From: Sporocytophaga sp.
GTDB lineage: Bacteria; Bacteroidota; Bacteroidia; Cytophagales; Cytophagaceae
Reading direction: 5' to 3'
Assembly (NCBI RefSeq): GCF_017745095.1
Contig: NZ_JAGHZZ010000060.1
Coordinates: 1 to 64,000, forward strand
Length of the DNA stretch: 64,000 nucleotides
Shown here: positions 47,720 through 60,238 of the stretch, piece by piece
How the letters are laid out: each line of letters starts with the position of its first letter
Numbering within the stretch: the stretch's first letter is position 1
Notes under the pieces: model-generated
Told to the model about the DNA's origin: nothing
What the model saw: the letters and a program-made list of their open reading frames with translations, nothing else
The model's database searches: none
Translations under genes and position numbers: made by a program

Positions 47720-48919
47720 TTATACTTTCGAACTTCCTGAATGAGGTGTATGAATAAATTTTTTATTAGCTCCTTTTAATTTAAACAACACCAAAAGCAT
47801 AACTATAAAAGCCTTAGGCAGCTGCGCTATTGCCTTCAAATTCTTCTTAGTAAAGAATTCCGCAGGTACTGCAATAGTCAATCCCAACATCTGAACGAGG
47901 AACAAACTTATCCAATAGAACGATCCTGGAAATGCTACTATTCCTGTGACAAATTCAAATATTGCAGATACTACTGCTGTCACTCCAGTCACTCCCAGTA
48001 GTAACACCCTTGGTGCCAAAAATTGCTGAAATGCTTTATCAAAGAAATCCATATTGCCCTTTGTTATAAGATGCCAAAGTCCTTGAAAGAAATATTGTCT
48101 AAAATAGTGCAATTGAGCAGATATCCATCTCCTTCGTTGATTTTGAAACACTTCAGCATTTTCAACCTTTTCATCCAATATATAGGCATCTTCTACATAT
48201 TCAATTTTAACCTTATCTCTCAGAAGCTTATGTTCCAGCTCTTTATCAAAGCCTCCAATAGCATTGTTGGTAGCCATAACCTTCTTAAAATACTTATAAT
48301 GAAAGGCCATCCCCGATCCGATAAGCCCGGAGGAAAGTCCTAGAACTCTGTGGCCTCTTCTATAAATATGGTTGTTAATTTCTTCGCTCACGGCATCCAA
48401 TATGGCGAAGTTAGTATTCATATTTTTTGCAACTCTGTGCCCTTGTACTGCACCTATGCCTTTAACAGATATAACAGAATTTAATTTTCTTATAAAATCC
48501 GCTTTCATAATATTGTCAGCATCCAACACAAGAGCATAATCATAAAGGTTTTCATCGAGTTGATTAAGTGCAACATTCAGTGATTTTGCCTTTGTGCTTT
48601 TATCAAAGGAAACTTCAATCACTTTAATGGGCATTGATTTCAACAAATTCAATGTGCTGTTTTGCAATGAATCAGCTATCACTATTACGTCATACAGATG
48701 TTGAGGATAATCTTGGTTCAAAGCTTCCTTTGCTGAGTTAAGAATTACCTCATCCTCTTTATATGATGGAATAAATACAGCAAACCTTCCAGACGGTTCT
48801 CTAAATTTATACCTTCTGAGTCCACCAAGCCTTCCGGCAAAAGAAAACAGAAATCCATAAAATACACAGACAGACAAATAAACAAATAGAACTAATAGTA
48901 TAATTTTAATAGCGATCAT
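47720..48919 (-). CDS. Processive-type membrane glycosyltransferase, family 2
   Basis: 399-residue inner-membrane GT2 with an N-terminal helix (about 4-28) and three C-terminal helices (about 300-385). All synthase signatures are present: VFIPSYKEDE (48-57), DADN (133-136), the acceptor acidic GGFDKELE (D225) and QRRRW (261-265). This is the bcsA/hyaluronan-synthase-like arrangement and argues for polymerising activity. Its start codon overlaps the stop codon of the preceding GT2 by 4 bases (ATGA). It is the last gene of the exopolysaccharide locus. Confidence 0.9.
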   Translation of the reverse strand: MIAIKIILLVLFVYLSVCVFYGFLFSFAGRLGGLRRYKFREPSGRFAVFIPSYKEDEVILNSAKEALNQDYPQHLYDVIVIADSLQNSTLNLLKSMPIKVIEVSFDKSTKAKSLNVALNQLDENLYDYALVLDADNIMKADFIRKLNSVISVKGIGAVQGHRVAKNMNTNFAILDAVSEEINNHIYRRGHRVLGLSSGLIGSGMAFHYKYFKKVMATNNAIGGFDKELEHKLLRDKVKIEYVEDAYILDEKVENAEVFQNQRRRWISAQLHYFRQYFFQGLWHLITKGNMDFFDKAFQQFLAPRVLLLGVTGVTAVVSAIFEFVTGIVAFPGSFYWISLFLVQMLGLTIAVPAEFFTKKNLKAIAQLPKAFIVMLLVLFKLKGANKKFIHTPHSGSSKV

Positions 48920-49896
48920 GCGGCTTCAAGTTTAATCCTTTTATTTTCCAATAATGCTTTGTTTTTAAAATTCCATAAATACCCTTTCATAAAAGCCTTT
49001 GCAAAATCTACCTTTTTTGAGAACAGATAAGTCAATAAATTTTTGGGTAGCGCTACGAAAGTAAAATAGATCATGCTTAAGTAAAGTGTTAACCCTTTTA
49101 CATTTCTGCGCATAAATAACAATCTGTTCCTTGTGAGGTAGTAAATCTTCATAGGATTAAGTTTACCTACTGTCGCAGACTCTTTATGAAACACATTTGA
49201 ATTACCTACAAACCAGATTGAATATCCGGCATCTTTTATTCTTTCACAAAAATCAAGTTCTTCATAATAAAGAAAGTACATTTCAGGCATTAAACCCACC
49301 TCCTGAATTACTTTGCGGGGAATCATCATTGCAGCTCCATGTCCATATGGAGTGCAGCAACAATGGTTGTACTGCCCATTATCTTTTTCATGTTGTCCGA
49401 TATATTTATTTCTTCCTGAAATAGGATTGATTGTCGTACTTCCAGCGAATTGAATTCTGCGATCACTATGATAATATATCAACTTCGCCGTTGCTGCTCC
49501 TGCACCAGGATCAGACTCCAACTTAGAAACAAGAGGTTCCATAAAATCAGGAGCTACTTCCGTATCATTATTCAACATAAGGAAATATTTACCTTTTGCA
49601 GCTTTGAAGCCAATATTATTGCCGCCAGCAAATCCATTGTTATTTTTATTTCTGATCAGCCTTATTTCCGGATACCTTTCTTTTATAACACCAGGATCTT
49701 CTTTTGAATGATTATCTACAACGATTATCTCAACATTCGGATAAGTAATTTTCCTTAAAGACTCAAGAAGTGCACATGTCACATCAGCTCCATTATAATT
49801 TATTGTTACTATTGAGACCAACGGGTAAATATCCTCTCTCACATTTCTCATATCAAAATGATTTAATAATACCAACCCACCGCTTATTGATTTCAA
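48916..49896 (-). CDS. Rhamnosyltransferase-like glycosyltransferase, family 2
   Basis: 326 residues of WbbL/rhamnosyltransferase type. GT-A core: VSIVTINYNG, IVVDNHSKED, FAGGNNIGFKAAKGKYFLML, then NNDTEV (DxD equivalent), and EELDFCERIKDAGY downstream. A short C-terminal amphipathic region (LYLSMIYFTFVALPKNLL) may associate it with the membrane. A start at 49851 (MRNVREDIYP) is an alternative. It overlaps the following GT2 by 4 bases, and is separated from the polymerase gene by 163 bases, which may hold an extra promoter. Confidence 0.9.
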   Translation of the reverse strand: MKSISGGLVLLNHFDMRNVREDIYPLVSIVTINYNGADVTCALLESLRKITYPNVEIIVVDNHSKEDPGVIKERYPEIRLIRNKNNNGFAGGNNIGFKAAKGKYFLMLNNDTEVAPDFMEPLVSKLESDPGAGAATAKLIYYHSDRRIQFAGSTTINPISGRNKYIGQHEKDNGQYNHCCCTPYGHGAAMMIPRKVIQEVGLMPEMYFLYYEELDFCERIKDAGYSIWFVGNSNVFHKESATVGKLNPMKIYYLTRNRLLFMRRNVKGLTLYLSMIYFTFVALPKNLLTYLFSKKVDFAKAFMKGYLWNFKNKALLENKRIKLEAA

Positions 49897-50059
49897 TAAA
49901 TAGAATTAGTAAGGAATAAAGAATCAGGTTATCTATAAAAAATATTATCCTTTCCGCAGTTCCAACTATTCTCTTATTACATCATCAGTCAATGAGTTCT
50001 TTTAAGAGAAACTAACAAAAAATAAAGATTGTTAAAAAGGGCCTGCAATCTAATACCGA

Positions 50060-51505
50060 TCAGGACTTTACAGGCTCTGTACTTTTAGAAGTTTCATCAG
50101 TATCCAAAGATGGACCGAGAAAAATAACACCAACAGAGATGCTCCAAAACACAATTGTAGGGAACTGAGCCAACACCTGATTACCATAACTCGCTACAAG
50201 GATCCCAAAGACACCGGCATACAAAGCCATCATCTTCTGCTTCAGAAAAGGATCACGGAGGTTATAAATAAGGTAGAAACCTCTTGCCAGAATAAACAAC
50301 AGTGTAAGTATATGAATCGTCAATCCAACAATTCCTGTCTCTGCCCAAATCCTGACATAGTGGCTATCCGGAGGTGTTTCAGCTAAAAAAGTTCCTGGAC
50401 TGAAACGGCTCCCCCAATAACCAATTGTACCTATTCCTCCCCCTATTGGTCTTGATGCAAGATAAGCTTTTAACTTTCTCTGGTTTTCAAGCCTTACCTT
50501 GAAAGAAGGGTCACTTTGAGGGTTCACAGCACTTCTCATCCTTTGAATCTGGTAATTAGACTGGCCTATGAAAGTAAACCTTAAAAAACAGAATACTGCA
50601 GCCATCGCAATAAATCCAAGTGTAAATATTCTGAAGTTCTTAGTGAGCAAGAGATAAAACAACACGCCAATAAATACAAACATAGCCCCTCTGGTTCCTG
50701 ATATAGCCATTCCCCAGAAACATAGTACACCTACTATAAAATAAAATACCGATTTAAAATTGGAGCTAGATTTCAGTGACAATATAATTGCTACAAGAGA
50801 AGAAAAAGACATAAAGGCACCAAACTGTCCTGCATCAGAGCAAAATGAAAAATATCTTATTTTACCAAATAAAATGTGTGTATCTGCAGCTGTTTCCAGC
50901 CAAGCCTTCTCCACATGGTCAAGACCGATATACATTTGCTTCATTCCATATAGAGCACAAACCAAAGCCCCAATCATCCATAAATTAATAAACACATCAA
51001 TCAGTTTCTCTGATTTCAGCACAAGGAATGTTAGTATAATAAGGAATATGATATAGAAGGATATTGCTCTTACTGCAAAGAACCATGCTTTAAAACTTAC
51101 AGCTTCCGGATTTAGAATTTCGAGCATTGTAAAACCTACCCACAATAACATTACCCAAATTAGACCATTATTCAGTTTTTTGATATTATCATAAGAAACA
51201 TTAAACAGTGCAGAGAATAGGGAAATAACAAGCACAATATCGAGAGTTGTCCCTAAAGGAGCGGAAACATATCTGGTGACACCATTTACAATCATGCCAA
51301 CCACCATGGCCATGATCATACCTGATATGGGATATGAGAATATAATGGCCAAAGCCACGAATACTAATGGCAGAGAAGCTGCTGCTGCAGTAATAACAAT
51401 GCCACCTTTGGCAAACAGCAAACCTAAAAAATAGGCAATTAGCAACAGTAAAGGCCATTGACCATATTTTTTCACATTTTCGATTAAGACATCACGATCG
51501 AGCAT
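50060..51505 (-). CDS. Wzy/O-antigen-ligase family polysaccharide polymerase
   Basis: 481-residue polytopic inner-membrane protein (about 10-12 helices). The Wzy_C/O-antigen ligase signature is visible in the large periplasmic loop: GTRGAMFVF, then PPDSHYVRIWAETGIVGL with the conserved His. In a Wzx/Wzy locus it should polymerise lipid-linked repeat units; ligase function cannot be excluded. Its start overlaps the flippase stop by one base (TGATG). Confidence 0.88.
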   Translation of the reverse strand: MLDRDVLIENVKKYGQWPLLLLIAYFLGLLFAKGGIVITAAAASLPLVFVALAIIFSYPISGMIMAMVVGMIVNGVTRYVSAPLGTTLDIVLVISLFSALFNVSYDNIKKLNNGLIWVMLLWVGFTMLEILNPEAVSFKAWFFAVRAISFYIIFLIILTFLVLKSEKLIDVFINLWMIGALVCALYGMKQMYIGLDHVEKAWLETAADTHILFGKIRYFSFCSDAGQFGAFMSFSSLVAIILSLKSSSNFKSVFYFIVGVLCFWGMAISGTRGAMFVFIGVLFYLLLTKNFRIFTLGFIAMAAVFCFLRFTFIGQSNYQIQRMRSAVNPQSDPSFKVRLENQRKLKAYLASRPIGGGIGTIGYWGSRFSPGTFLAETPPDSHYVRIWAETGIVGLTIHILTLLFILARGFYLIYNLRDPFLKQKMMALYAGVFGILVASYGNQVLAQFPTIVFWSISVGVIFLGPSLDTDETSKSTEPVKS

Positions 51506-52842
51506 CAGTCAACACTGAAATTTAGTTTACTCTTCAACTTTTTAACAGAACTTTTGATTTCTTTAAATCCTTCCGAAAATAATCTTGAAGGTATTATCTT
51601 AATATCTTTCCTTAAGAAGAATAGCCCCATAATGACTCCTGCAGAAAAGGTAAGTATGGAAACGATGGCAACAGGCCATAACATACCAAAGGACTTAATT
51701 ACAATGAATACGCCAAGCGAATTGATACATACCATTACAATTACCTTGAACATATTTTGCTGAGGCCTACTGAGAACGTCCAAGGCCATTCCTGAATATC
51801 TGTCAAGTGGCATTAAAGCAGCATGAAGAGCAAATATCCTTAGAATATTTGCAGATTCAGCATATCCCTCCCCGCCCAACAAAATCACTAGATATTCAGC
51901 AAATATTATACAAAACACCACCACAGGAAACAACATAATGCTGAACATACCTGCACTTCTTTCAAGCTTTTTACTAAGCCCTTGAAGATTTTTACTATTC
52001 ACCAATCGGGAAAAAGAAGGCAAAGCTGTTGCGGCGAAACTTCTCAAAGGTATTTCAACCAATTCAAATAATTTAAGCGGGATATTAAAAATTGCCACAG
52101 CCTCTCCACCCAACAAAGCTCCTATCAAAAATGTATCCGAGCTCCTTAATAAATTAGCGCCCACCATAGTACCCATACTAAACTTTCCGAAATTAAATAA
52201 ATCCTTAACTTTCTTCCACTCTGCCAATCTAATGCTTCTTATACCAGTCCATCCGGCAATCAGACAAAATAAACTTCCTGTAAAATTTGAAATCAGGTAA
52301 GACTGTACAATAAACTCTTTACCTCTATGCAAATACAATTCTGCAAATAGTAACAGTATAAATACACCTTGGCTAATCAGACGGATATAAATAATCTTAT
52401 TAAACTTCATATCTATCTGCAATATCCATGAAGAAAAGTTATAAGGAAGAGTAACAATTATTAATATCCAGAAATAGTTGAAAAAATAAATTGCTTCCTC
52501 TGATTTAATATAATAAAGCATTACCTGCTTAAGCAGAAAACTTAATACTACAAAAGAAATGGTAATCAGAATCGCAAATAACCAAGCGCTTCCGATTACC
52601 TTTTCTTTCTCACTATCACTAACACCTGAGCAAAATTTAACCAGTGGAGTCTGCAAGAATCCCACTCTTAGTAATTCAATAAAGACATACACAGTAATGA
52701 ACAATATCCAATTACCGAAATCTTCCTTTGTGAATATTCTTGCGAGCAATGCAAAACTTACAAAACCCAAACCTGCTGCAATGACATTACCTGTTAAAGA
52801 AAGAATATTATTATTGGACAAAATCTTCTTTAAAAACTTCAT
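51505..52842 (-). CDS. Wzx-type polysaccharide flippase
   Basis: 445 residues, about 12-14 transmembrane helices, with the oligosaccharide-flippase pattern at the N-terminus (GNVIAAGLGFVSFALLARIF, then TKEDFGNW). It should flip undecaprenyl-linked repeat units across the inner membrane. Overlaps the glycosyltransferase upstream by 4 bases (ATGA) and the polymerase downstream by 1 base. Confidence 0.9.
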   Translation of the reverse strand: MKFLKKILSNNNILSLTGNVIAAGLGFVSFALLARIFTKEDFGNWILFITVYVFIELLRVGFLQTPLVKFCSGVSDSEKEKVIGSAWLFAILITISFVVLSFLLKQVMLYYIKSEEAIYFFNYFWILIIVTLPYNFSSWILQIDMKFNKIIYIRLISQGVFILLLFAELYLHRGKEFIVQSYLISNFTGSLFCLIAGWTGIRSIRLAEWKKVKDLFNFGKFSMGTMVGANLLRSSDTFLIGALLGGEAVAIFNIPLKLFELVEIPLRSFAATALPSFSRLVNSKNLQGLSKKLERSAGMFSIMLFPVVVFCIIFAEYLVILLGGEGYAESANILRIFALHAALMPLDRYSGMALDVLSRPQQNMFKVIVMVCINSLGVFIVIKSFGMLWPVAIVSILTFSAGVIMGLFFLRKDIKIIPSRLFSEGFKEIKSSVKKLKSKLNFSVD

Positions 52843-54047
52843 ATAACTCTTTCCTTTTTCAACTCCAGCATCCTCTCAATTATTGAAGAGAATTGCTCAA
52901 CTCTATTTTCCCACGAATTATGTTTTGAAAATTCTATTCTGGATTTCATTCTCACTATAGAATCATTGTATAAAGCATCTTTGAGACTATTGAGAAACGT
53001 TTCTTTTGTATTGGCAATCCAAACGTGCTTATCAAACTCCGGAATCTTTGCAAAATCAGTCATAACAACTGGTTTACCAGCTGCCATATATTCATTGATC
53101 TTCAGTGGATATACTCCACTTGTAACCTCATTCTTTAGGTATGGTATGATGCCTACATCTATATCCTTAAGAAGTGATGGAATTTCGTAGGGCTTACGGC
53201 TTCCCATAAATTTGGCATTGGGATATTTCTTCAATGCCATTCTTGCCATTTCGTTCGTCACTCTTCCAATGAATTGAAATTGCACTTCCGGAAGCATTTT
53301 GATCGAATAAGATAAAAGTTCATAATCAAATCTTTCATCTATACTTCCTGTATACCCCACAATTCTTGGGGCATGAGGTGATTTTATCTTAACATCTGCT
53401 ACTGAATTGAAATGTTCAAAGTCTACACCATTTTTGACCACAAAGCAATTCTGATGAAGAGGATTCTTTGACTTATATAAAGCATCAGATGTTGTAATTA
53501 CTGCGTCTGTTTTTTTTATATATTCCTTTTCTATTTCCGGACCATGAAAGTGATACCACTGATCACCTTTAATCTCATCATAGCAATAATAAATATTTAA
53601 GAGTTCATTAAAATCACCCACCAAAGGCAGTCCAAAGAATGGATTGTATCCATTGACTACAATTGGATTTTCCATGTTCAATGTCTTTAGTGCTCGTTGA
53701 ATTGCTCCCCTTACCAGATTACCATTAAGTTTCAGCATTACCCTATACGGGTTTTCATTTTTTATCCAGTTGATAGGCAATACCGGTGGAGGTGTAAGCA
53801 CATGGATCTCACTTCCATAAACAGTATTTACAGTTCTCAGGCGATTTTCAAGTCCTATCATTCTTGTAATAGGCACTTTCTGCTTTCCGGATAAAGCCGC
53901 AATAATATCTTTTACCGTATACTCATAATCAACAAACAGAACTCTGTTTTGCTTACTTAAAATACTCATCATTTTCACAACAGTATTTACAAAGTCCTTA
54001 TCCCACGTAGTAAGCGCCATGCACAGGATATTTTTATTCCGGATCAT
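52839..54047 (-). CDS. Glycosyltransferase, GT4-like (GT-B fold)
   Basis: 402 residues, soluble. The C-terminal donor-binding half has the GT4 pattern: IVGYTGSIDERFDYELL, FQFIGRVTN, NAKFMGSRKPYEIPSLLKD, then TSGVYPLKINEYMAAGKPVV with the conserved Glu contacting the nucleotide sugar. Very similar enzymes occur in exopolysaccharide clusters; the linkage cannot be predicted. Overlaps Wzc by 14 bases upstream and the flippase by 4 bases downstream. Confidence 0.88.
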   Translation of the reverse strand: MIRNKNILCMALTTWDKDFVNTVVKMMSILSKQNRVLFVDYEYTVKDIIAALSGKQKVPITRMIGLENRLRTVNTVYGSEIHVLTPPPVLPINWIKNENPYRVMLKLNGNLVRGAIQRALKTLNMENPIVVNGYNPFFGLPLVGDFNELLNIYYCYDEIKGDQWYHFHGPEIEKEYIKKTDAVITTSDALYKSKNPLHQNCFVVKNGVDFEHFNSVADVKIKSPHAPRIVGYTGSIDERFDYELLSYSIKMLPEVQFQFIGRVTNEMARMALKKYPNAKFMGSRKPYEIPSLLKDIDVGIIPYLKNEVTSGVYPLKINEYMAAGKPVVMTDFAKIPEFDKHVWIANTKETFLNSLKDALYNDSIVRMKSRIEFSKHNSWENRVEQFSSIIERMLELKKERVI

Positions 54048-56253
54048 AAGATACTTTATTTTTCTTGGTCACACTTTTATCCTGATTTTCTTTGCTGACA
54101 AGTTTTGCAGAGAACCATTTCGGCACCCTTCCATAAATCTGTATCAGTCTGTCGGTAGTAACTTTGTTAAGAACCAATAATGGTTTTGATTTCAATACCT
54201 TTGTCAGCAAACCTGAAAGATAATTATCAGAATCCTTCCAAGGTCTATCAGCCCTGAGTACCAATAGGCACAGATCAGCTTCTTTAACCAAATGCAGAGG
54301 AAGTTGATATTCTTGAAGAGAAGGAATTTCAAGAAAAACAAAATCTGCTTTATCTATCGTCTTAAGTATTTCACTGATCTTATTTGCTGGAACCATCCTT
54401 TCAATAATTTCATAATGTCTGACTTTCACCTTTGAAATATCTACAACCTCCCGTTTGTCAATACTTTCAGGACGATAGCCAGTTTCTGATCCAGGTGTAA
54501 ATATTTCTGAAACATATCCAAGGTCAGAAATACGTTTAGCCATTTTGTAAATCATCCATGTCTTCCCTTCTGAAATCTGTGTACCGGCAACAAGGATAAC
54601 TTTTGTTTTCTTTGTTGGAGCAGACTTTTCAGTTTCCAACACAATCCTGTTAACCGCTTGTTCTATAAGGGAATCTTCAAAATACTCTGTAATCCTGTTT
54701 CTTTGAGTCACTTTTGGCAGTATACCGGCAACCTCAAATCCGGTCAGGCGCTCTGCTCTTGAGGAGTTTTTAACAGAAGAGTCCAATAACTCTTTCGCCA
54801 GATAGAAACTTAGTAGCAACAAAAAGGAAGCTATCATTGCGAGCGGAATCAAAACAAAATCTTTTGAAGCGATAGGTTTTACCGGATAAAAAGGCTGATC
54901 CAGAAGCTTAATATTACTTGACATTTTCACATTCTGATACCTCTGCTGGTTCATATTAAGAGCTTCCAGTTTATCCATATATTCTTTCTCTGCTACCTGC
55001 ACATCTCTTTTCAAAGTAAGTAACAACGAACCCAGAGGCGTAAAATCATTATAATCAGAATTAAAGGAATTATAACGCTCTTGCATAATCTTAAGTCTTG
55101 CCCCACTCTCCTCAACTATCAAGACATTGCTTAGCCATTGCTGAAGAATATTATCACTTGGAATACCTTCATGACTATTATTGATAGAGTATAGATTATT
55201 TACGAGATCTTTAAGCTCTTTTTTAATTGCATCTGCTTTTTCTGTTAATTCTTTTATTTTTTCTTTCGTTTCTCCGAAGTTTTGAGCATTTGCAATCTTA
55301 TAATTAATATCAGACAGCTCTTGCCTTTTAGCCAATACTCTGTCATTACTTTCCATAATATTCTTTCTGCCTTTCAGTCTTTCTTCAAGACTTACAAGGC
55401 TAGCCTGAGCTGAAGCAAGAGTCATCTTTTCCTTTTCAATCTCGTCTGCATACGTTTGTCTTGACTCTGACAATACTTTTGCCTGTTCGTCAAAATTGAT
55501 AATCTTATTTTTTACCTGGAATTCTTTAAGTTTAAGTTCAGCATCAGTAAGTCTTATCCTTGCTTTATCAGTCTGATTGGAATAATAGTTGACTACATTT
55601 TTAACTTCTGATTCTTTTATGTCACTATATTTTCTTATAAAGATTTGAGCAAGCAATAAAAGAGTCTGTTGACAAATAGCCGCATCATTAGCTGTGTAAG
55701 ATACGTCCAGCATATCACTGTTTTCTTTTCTATTAGCGTTTACTCTTCCTCGGATCTTATCTACTCCATATATCCCGTTTTGGGATGCTACAAGTGCTGA
55801 GAATACATTGAATTTATTTTTGCTTATATAAGCTTGCATCTTTTCATAAGTAGCCTCCGGTGTGGCTGCTTTTACCTGATGCAAAACAGAATCTGGCACT
55901 ATAGATTTTATTTCACTATACTTCTCAGGAGAGATGTATCTCAAATCCGGTTTATCTAAGGTTATATGAGATGCAATAAGCCTTAAAGAAACCTCCTGTA
56001 TTGTTTCTCTGGACTTTAAAGTATTTAAAAGATTATCGAAAGCATTACTTACAGCGTTGTGATCAAGCCTTGGATGCTCTTCTGTGGTTACATTATATCC
56101 GCTTGCAACTCCTGTATAAATCAGACATGTAGAAGCATATTCCTTTTCCCTCTTCCTTGTTTTCATGTAAACCAGTGAAGCCACTGCAACAGGAAAAAGT
56201 ATCAGAAGCATCAAGTGCTTTCTGAGTATCCTAAATATATCACCAAAGGTCAT
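54034..56253 (-). CDS. Wzc-like polysaccharide copolymerase with degenerate BY-kinase domain
   Basis: 739 residues. Wzz-type N-terminus with TM1 at about 17-31, a long periplasmic part rich in coiled coil (about 230-370, then 400-450), a Pro-containing segment (PFYPVKP) and TM2 at about 470-495. The cytoplasmic C-terminus resembles a bacterial tyrosine kinase (BY-kinase) but keeps only a Walker A-like AGTQISEGKTW (about 555-565). The Walker A' aspartates are not recognisable, Walker B reads VFLEIPSL instead of IDTPP, and no Tyr cluster is present. It should set polymer length and couple export, probably without kinase activity. Overlaps the TolC-like gene by 4 bases. Confidence 0.88.
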   Translation of the reverse strand: MTFGDIFRILRKHLMLLILFPVAVASLVYMKTRKREKEYASTCLIYTGVASGYNVTTEEHPRLDHNAVSNAFDNLLNTLKSRETIQEVSLRLIASHITLDKPDLRYISPEKYSEIKSIVPDSVLHQVKAATPEATYEKMQAYISKNKFNVFSALVASQNGIYGVDKIRGRVNANRKENSDMLDVSYTANDAAICQQTLLLLAQIFIRKYSDIKESEVKNVVNYYSNQTDKARIRLTDAELKLKEFQVKNKIINFDEQAKVLSESRQTYADEIEKEKMTLASAQASLVSLEERLKGRKNIMESNDRVLAKRQELSDINYKIANAQNFGETKEKIKELTEKADAIKKELKDLVNNLYSINNSHEGIPSDNILQQWLSNVLIVEESGARLKIMQERYNSFNSDYNDFTPLGSLLLTLKRDVQVAEKEYMDKLEALNMNQQRYQNVKMSSNIKLLDQPFYPVKPIASKDFVLIPLAMIASFLLLLSFYLAKELLDSSVKNSSRAERLTGFEVAGILPKVTQRNRITEYFEDSLIEQAVNRIVLETEKSAPTKKTKVILVAGTQISEGKTWMIYKMAKRISDLGYVSEIFTPGSETGYRPESIDKREVVDISKVKVRHYEIIERMVPANKISEILKTIDKADFVFLEIPSLQEYQLPLHLVKEADLCLLVLRADRPWKDSDNYLSGLLTKVLKSKPLLVLNKVTTDRLIQIYGRVPKWFSAKLVSKENQDKSVTKKNKVSYDPE

Positions 56254-57002
56254 TTTTGTTTAATTAAAGAACCAATACTCACCCCTATTAAATATTCGAA
56301 TTGTTTGTAAACTGTATTATAATCTTTTCTGGCAATCTCATAGTTAGATTCAGCCATAAAAAGAGTATTACTTACTGAGGAATAATCTTCAAGAGAGATT
56401 GTTCCTTCCTTAAATTGTTTCTCAGCCATCTGATATACAAGTTGCGAATTCTGAAGGCCTTCGCTTCTTATTTTCAAAAGCTTCTGGGCTACAATCAAAT
56501 TGTTGTATTCAGCTGCTATTTGCCTTTTTAATTCTACTATTACCCTATCTCTATTACTTTGAGCCATTTCCAGTTCGGCCTTACTAAACTTTATTCTATT
56601 GTGTCTGGCCGTTATATCAAACAGTGGTACACTCACGTTTACTCCTACTCTGTATCCGTTAAGAAAATTTGTCTGGCGGTTAAAGTCTCCATATGATACA
56701 CCAAACTTCTGGTCACCTGTGGCATAGTTACCAAAGGCCTGGATGTCTTTTTGCCAATCCTTTCTGGCTAAATGAATTTCCTGTTTACGAGCCTTTATAC
56801 TAGCATCCTCCACTTTTATGTATGGAGATTTATCAACTGCAATCGAAATGATTTCATCCAGGGGAAGTAATTGCGTTTCAAGATCCTGAAGAACAATAAC
56901 ACTATCCTTATGTACTTGTCCGAAGGATGTAACCGAAAACAGAGTGGATATCAAAAGAAGCATACCATAAGCGGAATGCTTATTATTCCAAAGGGTATTC
57001 AT
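56250..57002 (-). CDS. Half-length TolC/OEP-family outer-membrane protein
   Basis: From the ATG at 57002 (two bases past the stop of the transferase gene) it has a signal peptide ending SVTSFGQ and about 250 residues; earlier in-frame ATGs at 57011 and 57047 exist. Sequence character is OEP-like: LDEIISIAVDKSPYIKVEDA, ALARKDW-type helical repeats and a mid-region strand pair (GNYATGDQKFG, YRVGVNVSVPLF), then the long helix QRQIAAEYNNLIVAQKLLKI-like. Normal TolC proteins have two such repeats and about 420-480 residues; this one has one. It may oligomerise as a hexamer or act in polymer export with Wzc. Function inferred from the position. Confidence 0.8.
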   Translation of the reverse strand: MNTLWNNKHSAYGMLLLISTLFSVTSFGQVHKDSVIVLQDLETQLLPLDEIISIAVDKSPYIKVEDASIKARKQEIHLARKDWQKDIQAFGNYATGDQKFGVSYGDFNRQTNFLNGYRVGVNVSVPLFDITARHNRIKFSKAELEMAQSNRDRVIVELKRQIAAEYNNLIVAQKLLKIRSEGLQNSQLVYQMAEKQFKEGTISLEDYSSVSNTLFMAESNYEIARKDYNTVYKQFEYLIGVSIGSLIKQK

Positions 57003-57003
57003 A

Positions 57004-58227
57004 CTATACATTTTCTTTCTGTAATAATGCAGGAATTGTTTTCGCAATAATTTTCAGATCTCTCAAGAATGAATAATTCCTGGCATAGTCATTATCCAGC
57101 TGAATTCTTTCAGCCTCCGACATTTCCTTAGTTCCTCTTTTTGTCACCTGCCAAAGACCTGTAATACCTGCAGGAGCAAGGAATCTTAGGGTAAACTGAT
57201 CCACTGTAATCTTTTCAGCTTCATAAAGCGGAAGCGGACGATTACCAACAATAGACATATCGCCTTTCAATACATTGAAAAGTTGAGGCAGCTCATCTAT
57301 ACTAGTATTCCTTATAAACTTACCGATCTTGGTAATTCTTGGGTCATTACTTATTTTTATAAATGCGGCAGCATCCTTTTCTTTCTTTTCCAAAAGGAAT
57401 CTCTTTTCACAAATTTCTTTTCCATCCAAGAAAAGCATGGACTGACAAACCTTATTTCCTCTTGCACACTCTTCACAAAGGTTTGTGTGCTGAGACTTTT
57501 CTTCAACAGCTACAGTAGTTTCTTTTTTATTGTCACCTTCAGCACCTTTTTTATTTTTATTATATTGATTCAAGTGTGCTAGATCCTTTAACTTCTTATC
57601 AGCATCGGCGCTCATTGAGCGAAACTTATAGAAGTCAAAAATCTTGTATCCAGTACCAACCCTTTTCGCAGCATAAAAAACAGGGCCTCTTGATTCCAGC
57701 CTTATTAATATAGCAAGCAAAAGAAAGAATGGACTTAGAAATATAAGTGCTAGTGTTGCAAATACAATATCAAATATCCTCTTAACTAAAGGAATCTTAT
57801 ACTCTGGATGCTTTACAAAGCCCTCTTTATACGCTCGTTTGTAATGAATTTTATTTTCTATTAGGTAATTTAACCTTAATGCAAATGGATCTTTCGAGAC
57901 ATTCTGTTCGAAAATTTCGGATACACTATGTTTAAGCATTTCGGAGCGGACCTGCCCTGTAATGCTGTCAACAAGAAAAACAAAAGGAACCGGCTCTACA
58001 TCCGATTGTTTTAAATGCTGCAACAATAACAGCCCATTCGGGCTGTGTAATTGTCCAGCAGAAATTATTGCATCGATTTTATTACCCTTAGAATGCCATT
58101 CGAAAAACTTAAACCCGTTTTCAAAATGTATAACATCAAACCCATCTGCCATTCGAGTTGAAAATGATTCTAGCCGATCCGTCTGATTGTCTATATAAGC
58201 CAGCTTCTTCTGTGTAATAAGCTCCAT
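57004..58227 (-). CDS. Polyprenyl-phosphate sugar transferase fused to a dead receiver domain
   Basis: 407 residues. N-terminus about 1-125 folds like a response-regulator receiver (YIDNQTD, DAIISAGQLHSPNG) but the phosphoacceptor Asp is A57 and the conserved Lys is absent. A bacterial sugar transferase (WbaP/WcaJ family) follows: transmembrane/re-entrant helix about 151-175 with LSPFF, then KFRSM (about 201-205), the catalytic DELPQL (D311, E312), and SIVGNRPLPLYE. Between KFRSM and FIKISNDPR lies an unusual insert of about 80 residues with four cysteines (C251, C254, C261, C273). It starts a repeat unit by loading a sugar phosphate onto undecaprenyl phosphate. It lies 9 bases after the response regulator gene. 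Confidence 0.9.
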   Translation of the reverse strand: MELITQKKLAYIDNQTDRLESFSTRMADGFDVIHFENGFKFFEWHSKGNKIDAIISAGQLHSPNGLLLLQHLKQSDVEPVPFVFLVDSITGQVRSEMLKHSVSEIFEQNVSKDPFALRLNYLIENKIHYKRAYKEGFVKHPEYKIPLVKRIFDIVFATLALIFLSPFFLLLAILIRLESRGPVFYAAKRVGTGYKIFDFYKFRSMSADADKKLKDLAHLNQYNKNKKGAEGDNKKETTVAVEEKSQHTNLCEECARGNKVCQSMLFLDGKEICEKRFLLEKKEKDAAAFIKISNDPRITKIGKFIRNTSIDELPQLFNVLKGDMSIVGNRPLPLYEAEKITVDQFTLRFLAPAGITGLWQVTKRGTKEMSEAERIQLDNDYARNYSFLRDLKIIAKTIPALLQKENV

Positions 58228-58236
58228 ACTGATTTT

Positions 58237-58665
58237 TTACTTATAAATTCTTTTGAAAATATTTTCTACTCTTATTTCAAGTTCTTCAGGATTGAATGGT
58301 TTCATCATAAAATCATCAGCGCCACACTTAAGACACTGAATCCTCACGCTGCTTGATTCATAACTTGATAGAATTAGGAGTGGTACCTCTCTGAAAAATC
58401 CACTGGACCGGATATGTTTAATAAATTCAAATCCATCCATCTCGGGCATACGCAAATCACATATAATCAAATCCGGTATATTCCCCTCATGCATCCACTC
58501 AAATGCTTCCTTACCATTTGCTTTTTTTACTACATTATATTTTTTGCACAATGTGCAATTAATTATATCTAAAGTTGACTCAACGTCATCAATTGCAAGA
58601 ATAGTTTTCCCCTTCTCTGCCACAAGTTTTTCAACTGTTGGCAATGCCTTTTCCATTATTTCCAT
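58237..58665 (-). CDS. Stand-alone response regulator receiver (CheY-like)
   Basis: 142 residues, receiver only. Acidic pocket D26/D27, phosphoacceptor D70 in IICDLRMPEMDG, conserved Ser100/101 and Lys122 in MKPFNP are all present, so it should be phosphorylatable. No output domain follows. First gene of the leftward exopolysaccharide operon, 9 bases before the sugar transferase whose own receiver domain is dead. It may regulate the transferase or assembly by direct contact; the kinase is not in the window. Confidence 0.92.
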   Translation of the reverse strand: MEIMEKALPTVEKLVAEKGKTILAIDDVESTLDIINCTLCKKYNVVKKANGKEAFEWMHEGNIPDLIICDLRMPEMDGFEFIKHIRSSGFFREVPLLILSSYESSSVRIQCLKCGADDFMMKPFNPEELEIRVENIFKRIYK

Positions 58666-58948: not shown

Positions 58949-60238
58949 ATGGTACAGGAGAGATTAGCTGAATTGCTTAAGAAAAAAGGTATAGGGCCTG
59001 AAGGCAGCAAAAGTCTTACAACAGAAGAGCTCAATGAGCTTGAACATTTACTTAAATCTCCTGATGTAAGCCTTACCACTGTCGCCACAATGGTAACAGC
59101 TTTGCTTACACTTGAACCCAATAATCAGGAAAAAGAATGGATAGAAAAGATTAAAGCTGCTCCTTCAAAATTTCTTCCGAATGAAATTGTACCATTTTTC
59201 ACCGGTGATACAAGGGACAATTTCTATAAGCTAATCCTTAAAGTCATAAAACACGAAAACTTATCCAAAGAAGAAGCTGAAAGCGGAATAGAACAATTAT
59301 TCCATATTCAAACACCAGAATACCTTAAAGGTGCTTTCCTAGAATCACAAAGGTTAAAGAGAGAGACATTCATTGAAAACAAAGCTTTCTTTTCAGGTTT
59401 GTGGAATAAAGTAGAGAGAGTAAAAACTGATCTTCCTGTAGTAGTTGATATTGCGGATAGCTATGATGGTTTTAACCGAACTTCTAATTTTTCACTATTT
59501 ACTGCAGCATTGCTGGCATCACTAGACATTCCCTGTATTATTCACTCTATCGATAAAGTTGCACCTAAAGAGGGCTATACCTCCCACCAACTTTTGAAAC
59601 TGGCAGGCAAAGATCCACTCAAGTCTGTTTTGCATGCTAAACAAGCATTGGAAAACAAGTCGATAGGATTAGCCTATCTGGATCAGCAGATATTTTTTAA
59701 TAATCTATTTCTGCTTAAGAAGATGAGAAAGGAAATGGTTAAACGTCCTTTCCTTGCAACTTTTGAAAAACTTTTACAACCAATCCAAAGCACTCAGGGA
59801 AACTACCTTGTTTCCGGATATACACATCCACACTATAAGGAAGAAGTTGTAAAACAGCTGAAGGAACAGGGAGAATGTAAAATGGCCCTTATCTTTAAGG
59901 GACTAGAAGGGTCAACACAGTTAACACTAAGCAGAGGTTCTACCGCTATATTTTATGATGGCAATGAAATAAATGAGTCATTGGTTTCCCCTGAGGATTT
60001 TGAGCTTCCTCTTGTGGAAAGTAAACAAGATAAAAGCATCAAACCTGAAGATGTATTATCGGAAGGATTAGCGGCACTTGAGGGAAAGAAAAATTATGCG
60101 AGGGAAGCTATCATATATCAAGCCGCAGTTATAATCACTAAGTTTAACCTAATACAACAAAAAGATCTAATTTCTTTATTGCAGCAAAAGCTTGATTCGG
60201 GGGAAGCATTGAATCGATGGAACATGCTGAATATTTAA
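58949..60238 (+). CDS. TrpD2/YbiB-like anthranilate phosphoribosyltransferase homolog
   Basis: 429 residues, soluble. Helical N-terminal domain, then the glycosyltransferase-family-3 alpha/beta domain with segments typical of the TrpD2/YbiB branch: DIADSYDGFNRTSNFSLFTA, IIHSIDKVAPKEGYTSHQLL and LKSVLHAKQALENKSIGLAY. The GTGGD phosphate-binding motif of true TrpD is not seen, so anthranilate phosphoribosyl transfer is doubtful; YbiB itself binds nucleic acid. It is divergent from the response regulator gene across 283 bases and unrelated to the neighbours. Confidence 0.82.
   Translation: MVQERLAELLKKKGIGPEGSKSLTTEELNELEHLLKSPDVSLTTVATMVTALLTLEPNNQEKEWIEKIKAAPSKFLPNEIVPFFTGDTRDNFYKLILKVIKHENLSKEEAESGIEQLFHIQTPEYLKGAFLESQRLKRETFIENKAFFSGLWNKVERVKTDLPVVVDIADSYDGFNRTSNFSLFTAALLASLDIPCIIHSIDKVAPKEGYTSHQLLKLAGKDPLKSVLHAKQALENKSIGLAYLDQQIFFNNLFLLKKMRKEMVKRPFLATFEKLLQPIQSTQGNYLVSGYTHPHYKEEVVKQLKEQGECKMALIFKGLEGSTQLTLSRGSTAIFYDGNEINESLVSPEDFELPLVESKQDKSIKPEDVLSEGLAALEGKKNYAREAIIYQAAVIITKFNLIQQKDLISLLQQKLDSGEALNRWNMLNI

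Follow-up and report, generated by a model that had tools for sequence, protein, structure and literature searches.

A live response regulator is linked across the Bacteroidota to a phosphoglycosyl transferase carrying a decayed receiver: a candidate two-protein switch for polysaccharide initiation

The gene of a single-domain response regulator (RR) with a complete, live receiver and the gene of a monotopic phosphoglycosyl transferase (PGT) fused to a dead receiver are linked throughout the phylum Bacteroidota, and the linkage is near obligatory. On balance, this arrangement probably reflects a two-protein switch, a kind of "split PleD", in which the phosphorylated RR acts on the pseudo-receiver-PGT and gates the initiation of a Wzx/Wzy-type polysaccharide; residues, predicted fold, gene order, conservation and one natural fusion support it. 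In such a switch, a histidine kinase would phosphorylate the RR at D70, and the phosphorylated RR would bind the adjacent transferase, most likely by pairing with its N-terminal pseudo-receiver. Binding would alter the assembly or the conformation of the monotopic PGT, and the transfer of sugar-1-phosphate to undecaprenyl phosphate would be switched on, activation being the direction that we infer. More tentatively, we advance the broader view of a dedicated, Bacteroidota-wide module, in which polysaccharide initiation would be gated by the pairing of a live receiver, supplied in trans, with the pseudo-receiver on the enzyme, the latter having decayed to a docking platform.

The pair was identified in the window, that is the whole 64-kb stretch of DNA analyzed, within an apparent polysaccharide operon that runs on the minus strand from 58665 down to 47720 and comprises the following features:

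58237..58665, minus strand: single-domain RR, 142 aa, operon gene 1 (Pfam and residues)
57004..58227, minus strand: monotopic PGT with N-terminal pseudo-receiver, 407 aa (Pfam, alignment and model)
57856..58209, minus strand: predicted pseudo-receiver domain, transferase residues 7-124 (AlphaFold, structural matches and hhalign)
57004..57786, minus strand: PGT part, transferase residues 148-407 (PF02397 and invariant motifs)
57409..57477, minus strand: four-cysteine insert in the PGT domain, C251, C254, C261 and C273 (sequence)
56250..57002, minus strand: short TolC-family outer-membrane efflux protein (OEP) with one OEP repeat, next after the transferase (PF02321, 1.6e-35, in one stretch)
54034..56253, minus strand: polysaccharide co-polymerase of Wzz/GNVR type with a C-terminal P-loop-like segment (GNVR 6.5e-06 and Wzz 0.0041, both under the Pfam cut-offs)
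47720..54047, minus strand: glycosyltransferase, Wzx-type flippase, Wzy-type polymerase and two further frames, the rest of the apparent operon

Upstream, a divergent gene starts at 58949, so the RR heads the operon. The gene order read earlier from the sequence alone was accurate in this respect. Coordinates and strands also proved exact, as did the lengths of 142 and 407 aa and the 9 bases between the RR stop and the transferase start; an alternative start codon could shift this gap slightly, leaving the gene order unaffected. The inferred start of the TolC-family gene, 57002, lies in a frame open from 57047. The last two reading frames of the operon resemble, by reading alone, family-2 glycosyltransferases.

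In the RR, the residues D26, D27, D70, S100 and K122 are all present, and Response_reg (4.1e-25) is the sole Pfam family above its cut-off, with no DNA-binding domain detected in the Pfam scan. The protein thus has the acidic pair, phospho-Asp, Ser/Thr and Lys of a single-domain RR and carries no output domain; the complete receiver with D26/D27, D70 and K122 proposed by the sequence-only reading agrees with both residues and Pfam. As receivers are numerous in this genome (55 matches to the RR profile at E ≤ 1e-12 in 6.6 Mb), chance adjacency was weighed as an artefact. The RR family profile scores 179 bits to each of the genome's two linked RRs and 103 bits to the next receiver; judged by such profile scores, the RRs of these pairs are a dedicated RR subfamily.

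The match of the transferase N-terminus to Response_reg is weak (E 0.0074; 16.9 bits, cut-off 30.2). Nevertheless, the first 140 residues of the transferase align over their whole extent with the neighboring RR (blastp E 1e-11, 23% identity), and comparison by hhalign of the fused-domain profile with the RR profile, built from 47 and 45 relatives, gave a probability of 99.7 and an E of 5.3e-26. An AlphaFold model of residues 1-142, based on the 47-sequence alignment (pLDDT 85, pTM 0.81), shows the (βα)5 alternation over residues 7-124, with residue 57 closing strand 3, so that a fold other than a receiver for residues 1-125, which would have spoken against the earlier proposal, was not found. 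The model superimposes on ArcA (1xhf_B; Z 15.8, rmsd 2.1, 119 aligned) and on the constitutively active PhoB D10A/D53E (2jb9; Z 15.3, rmsd 1.9, 116 aligned), PorX is also matched (Foldseek 2.1e-07), and the solved structures among the matches listed are receivers almost throughout; the best solved receiver match of the family profile is PleD (9g85, 9.9e-13). In the alignment with the RR, the fused domain has D13/N14 at the acidic positions, A57 in place of the phospho-Asp, V86 in place of the conserved Ser/Thr and Q108 in place of the conserved Lys, as had been noticed for A57 and for the missing Lys. Taken together, homology and the modelled receiver fold, without phosphotransfer residues, identify the N-terminal domain of the transferase as a pseudo-receiver.

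The α4-β5-α5 face is commonly used by receivers for pairing. Among 113 cluster representatives of the fused domain, D104 in strand 5 is kept in 91 and R118 in helix 5 in 100, and these two residues would fit pairing through this face; this argument carries little weight, as Asp and Arg are also retained in the corresponding elements of the RRs.

The C-terminal part of the transferase matches PF02397 (Bac_transf, 3.4e-61), and in the 47-sequence alignment D153-X12-P166 (the re-entrant helix motif), K201, R306, the D311-E312 dyad, R330 and D390 are invariant; the motif roles were taken from the main text of PMC12802240 and mapped here onto the window positions. Profile matches to WbaP (8t53, E 1.7e-53) and to a small PGT (8e37, E 8.3e-43) likewise identify this part as a monotopic PGT. 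The likeness to the large PGTs WbaP and WcaJ lies in the catalytic domain; they differ in having a PF13727 DUF and a four-helix transmembrane bundle where the pseudo-receiver stands here (PMC10942596, in excerpt). Features of the large monotopic type (WbaP/EpsZ) were not detected in the transferase: PF13727 gives no match at E ≤ 1, the model of residues 1-134 shows a receiver and one short helix instead of a four-helix bundle, and TIGR03025, TIGR03022 and TIGR03023 all score under their cut-offs. In the full-length AlphaFold model (pTM 0.52) the PGT part is of low confidence, and the 50 Foldseek matches listed for it comprise no PGT and are nearly all receivers, which is no evidence against a PGT, so membership in this class rests on sequence.

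In order to establish how widely the pair occurs, several genome samples were scanned. Judged by their titles, the best 80 of 171 matched relatives from a scan of named genomes comprised two Thalassovita or Thalassobius MAGs, with Bacteroidota making up nearly all the others. In the class sample the family was found in at least 47 of 395 evenly drawn genomes, at 50 places (E ≤ 1e-80), two of which belong to the window's own genome; the figure is a lower bound, four candidates having been scored per genome. There the RR lay directly upstream at 47/47 places with the N-terminal domain and at 0/3 places without it. The family was present in 15/118 genomes of the phylum sample (E ≤ 1e-60) and in 24/64, 28/396, 7/22, 5/12 and 65/320 genomes of five order samples (E ≤ 1e-90), 53 of the 65 places of the last one entering the set. 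Seven identical proteins were dropped, and L087 and L102 are the window's own two places recovered again. After removal of duplicates, 233 distinct transferases were obtained, nearly all from Bacteroidota, 218 of them with the N-terminal domain.

An RR was called upstream at a profile E ≤ 1e-8 and a gap of -250 to 700. By this rule it lies directly upstream, on the same strand, in 211/218 relatives with the N-terminal domain, in line with the linkage of a live RR to a dead-receiver transferase that had been looked for in relatives. Four of the remaining seven are at contig ends (L025, L027, L052 and L211) and three are real exceptions: L054 and L233, in which the pseudo-receiver is present and no RR is nearby despite enough flank, which counts against the proposed switch, and L214, described below. 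Losses at contig ends (the four above and L239) were set aside; L050, L062 and L075, truncated or with masked letters, did not enter the coupling analysis; the distance analyses omitted these three together with L037 and L101. All five are retained in the counts on 233 transferases. The two genes are tightly spaced, with a median gap of 5 bp, 145/162 gaps within -35 to 50 and 37 overlaps in a subset of 182 proteins. A further search found the family in 21/296 genomes, at 23 places, most already in the set; among ten of those places, the two new relatives with the N-terminal domain, L314 and L315, both have the RR.

None of 49 control sugar transferases (29 large ones, the best-scoring matches, and 20 hand-picked small ones) has an RR of this family, within an upstream reach of ~0.6 kb for most of the large controls, 111 bases for L160 and ~1.5-1.7 kb for the small ones. 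In the window's own genome, none of the four remaining transferases has an RR immediately upstream on the same strand, and two of them have a receiver elsewhere nearby. The same genome carries a second pair:

L319:9079-10657, contig 61: second RR/pseudo-receiver-PGT pair of the same genome, the transferase being L005

The genes that follow this second pair resemble a glycosyltransferase and an acyltransferase, not the TolC-type and co-polymerase genes found in the window.

The linkage could still mean operon membership only, the RR being a general regulator with another target, such as a kinase relay partner or some other protein. Other genes do accompany the pair: in 81 loci (the 80 named ones and L005, some of which end early) a TolC-family gene lies directly 3' of the transferase in 59 and a co-polymerase downstream in 65, and among the 208 loci of the wider set whose flank was long enough, 100 have a TolC-family gene immediately 3' of the transferase. 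The distances between proteins agree with this explanation. RR and pseudo-receiver distances are correlated (partial r 0.38; 104 non-redundant of 206 pairs), but when corrected for the PGT core and the OEP the value is 0.30, against 0.33 for the RR and the OEP (53 non-redundant of 97 loci), with a bootstrap interval of the difference from -0.33 to 0.19. Since the RR is as correlated with the OEP as with the pseudo-receiver, co-divergence was discarded as a sign of RR/pseudo-receiver contact. In a mean-field coupling analysis, shallow at 208 pairs and an effective depth of 99, the top inter-protein pairs were scattered. Nevertheless, the RR remains next to the transferase at loci where neither OEP nor co-polymerase follows, as in the second copy of the same genome and in L026, a live receiver fused to a PGT exists (L214), and the RR has no DNA-binding domain by Pfam; we thus consider mere operon membership improbable.

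The two receivers of the pair differ sharply in their phosphorylation sites, the full residue set being present in 211/220 RRs and in 1/218 fused domains, that of L214. Of the nine RRs without it, two are truncated or masked, L030 has no acidic pair and six have no Asp at 70. In these six (L055, L058, L103, L141, L145 and L147) the phospho-Asp is replaced by Ser or Glu, which counts against the proposed switch; judging by these residues both partners may be phosphorylation-independent in some lineages. At the phospho-site of the 218 fused domains we counted E 97, Q 35, D 23, Y 19, N 14, H 9, G 7, K 7 and A 3, the remaining four having other letters, X or a gap. Ala, as in A57, is rare at this position: it occurs in 3/218, namely the window, its close relative L007 and L092, and Glu is the commonest letter, also found in L005. 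A near universality of Glu, suggested by 71/82 early relatives, was abandoned with the 97/218 of the wider set; the first 82 relatives are close to the window.

The predominance of Glu, together with Gly at the first acidic position in 131/218 fused domains and the presence of the constitutively active PhoB variant among the close structural matches, would suit a switch of opposite sign, in which Glu-type pseudo-receivers are locked active and the RR competes or displaces, so that phosphorylation turns the enzyme off. We regard this as very improbable, as more than half of the fused domains, the A57 domain of the window included, have no Glu, and EpsW, a regulator of this kind in Myxococcus xanthus, is an activator (PMC12802240, main text).

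Natural variants bear on which part of the transferase the RR would touch. One of them joins the two functions in a single protein:

L214:1495-2628, minus strand: fused live receiver-PGT, second copy in genome G484

This 377-aa frame has a complete receiver joined directly to the PGT, with no internal stop. The receiver scores 76.8 bits against Response_reg and 110 bits against the RR profile, compared with at most 86 bits for the other fused domains, and it ends in a KPFxPEEL motif like the stand-alone RRs. No separate RR is found at this locus, which is one of the three non-edge members without a neighboring RR. Relatives with unlinked genes and an Asp in the fused domain, which would have told against the pairing first proposed, are represented among the 233 transferases by L214 only. 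In it the complete receiver replaces the RR, which favors the receiver/pseudo-receiver model; as a single case, the fusion is suggestive and not proof of a switch.

The other variants are bare PGTs, without the N-terminal domain. Nine of 15 have the RR (L026, L035, L038, L094, L095, L237, L238, L240 and L279), five do not and one is at a contig end. In L279 (genome G1097) a TAG stop lies inside the matched stretch and both PGT and RR remain, hence it was counted as bare. Five more bare PGTs came from the ten places of the further search, with an RR at L301 and L302 and none at L306, L311 and L312. Since RRs precede bare PGTs, pairing of receiver and pseudo-receiver is not the sole possible contact, and the linkage does not depend on a pseudo-receiver.

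This makes room for a different contact, in which the RR acts on the catalytic or membrane part of the PGT and the pseudo-receiver merely dimerizes or anchors the enzyme, comparable to the DUF of WbaP. The bare PGTs with an adjacent RR agree with it, as do L214, whose live receiver sits directly on the PGT, and EpsZ, which has a four-helix bundle and a DUF and no receiver (PMC12802240, main text). On the other hand, the RR is better predicted by the presence of the N-terminal domain than by its absence (RR present/absent 211/3 against 9/5, that is 211/214 against 9/14, contig-end cases dropped; Fisher p 2e-5, with relatedness ignored), and the domain keeps the receiver fold, the strand-5 Asp (D104) and the helix-5 Arg (R118). 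We consider this contact possible, if rather unlikely, and favor pairing with the pseudo-receiver. The earlier proposal that receiver-receiver pairing controls the first committed step of synthesis therefore stands in part: phylum-wide linkage, its absence at 49 controls, the L214 fusion and the EpsW precedent speak for it, but RRs also lie beside bare PGTs.

Kinase genes are seen next to some of the pairs. In L011, L012 and L034 a hybrid histidine kinase gene (HisKA, HATPase and receiver by Pfam) precedes the RR gene by 123-202 bases and shares its strand, and kinase-like genes, by phmmer only, also lie just upstream in L016 and L288. Kinase genes within ~200 bases upstream were thus found in only five loci, which counts against the switch, many loci having ~1.5 kb of flank. 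Farther upstream on the same strand they occur in L042, L140 and L143, and on the other strand in L064, L073, L135, L136 and L290; at the remaining loci no kinase-like gene was found within the flank examined. Other regulators were noticed as well: by reading, an NtrC-like regulator adjoins L214 divergently, and next to the pairs of L010 and L038 there are receiver-containing regulators of the sigma-54 type.

Regulation of a PGT by an RR is known from M. xanthus, where the phosphorylated single-domain RR EpsW interacts with the initiating PGT EpsZ and stimulates it post-translationally (PMC12802240, main text). Both systems have a single-domain RR, encoded in a polysaccharide locus, and an initiating monotopic PGT of a Wzx/Wzy-type pathway, and by analogy we propose from the genes that regulation would fall on the initiating step here too. 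EpsZ differs in being a large PGT, and the window proteins are not equivalogs of the M. xanthus ones (RR, 64.9 bits against the NF041866 cut-off of 200 for EpsW; transferase, 157.3 bits against the NF041877 cut-off of 800 for EpsZ). The main text of that paper has no word beginning with "Bacteroid". It discusses O'Toole 2021 for small monotopic PGTs with fused receiver domains, which resemble our transferase in the fusion of a receiver-type domain to a monotopic PGT. In Caulobacter PleD, the enzyme is switched on when phosphorylation of the receiver alters how it contacts a pseudo-receiver (PMC12632262, in excerpt). The proposed switch would likewise have a live receiver and a pseudo-receiver controlling an enzyme; PleD differs in being one polypeptide with a diguanylate cyclase output, whereas in the window the live receiver is separate and the output is a PGT.

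Regulation of PGTs by RRs, receivers on small PGTs and pseudo-receiver relays are already known. The open-access literature searched contained no report, for Bacteroidota, of a dedicated live RR paired throughout the phylum with a decayed, PGT-borne receiver, or of the fused variant. The same 2025 perspective, in excerpt, calls the on/off switching of bacterial pseudo-receivers a mystery and names phosphorylation-dependent receiver/pseudo-receiver heterodimers as one possibility (PMC12632262). The family now supplies over 200 naturally occurring pairs of receiver and pseudo-receiver whose enzyme output can be measured, along with natural variants for comparison (lacking the pseudo-receiver, with a live receiver fused on, or with Glu, Gln or Ala at the phospho-site). 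If the switch is real, RR control of polysaccharide initiation would reach the Bacteroidota and a different PGT architecture, and the pairs would show, in a natural system open to assay, how a bacterial pseudo-receiver gets activated, the phosphorylation function having moved to the neighboring gene.

Three further elements of the locus deserve mention. The four-cysteine insert sits between the KFRSM and DPRIT motifs of the PGT and is near all-or-none: in the first 82 relatives, 36 have four Cys, two have three and 44 have none, the columns of C251, C254, C261 and C273 varying together. By pattern match it is present in 139/218 relatives with the N-terminal domain, and also in the bare PGTs L306 and L311; it may bind a metal close to the active site.

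TolC is about twice the size of the short TolC-family protein of the window. The latter, with its single OEP repeat, is possibly a half-TolC exporter for the polysaccharide; across the 100 loci where such a gene directly follows the transferase, the median protein length is 249 aa, and no Wza-type family match was found among the eight window proteins scanned with Pfam. Finally, the P-loop-like segment AGTQISEGKT lies at the C-terminal end of the co-polymerase, where by eye no tyrosine-rich tail is seen, and from its sequence this segment is perhaps a kinase-dead relative of the BY-kinase domain.
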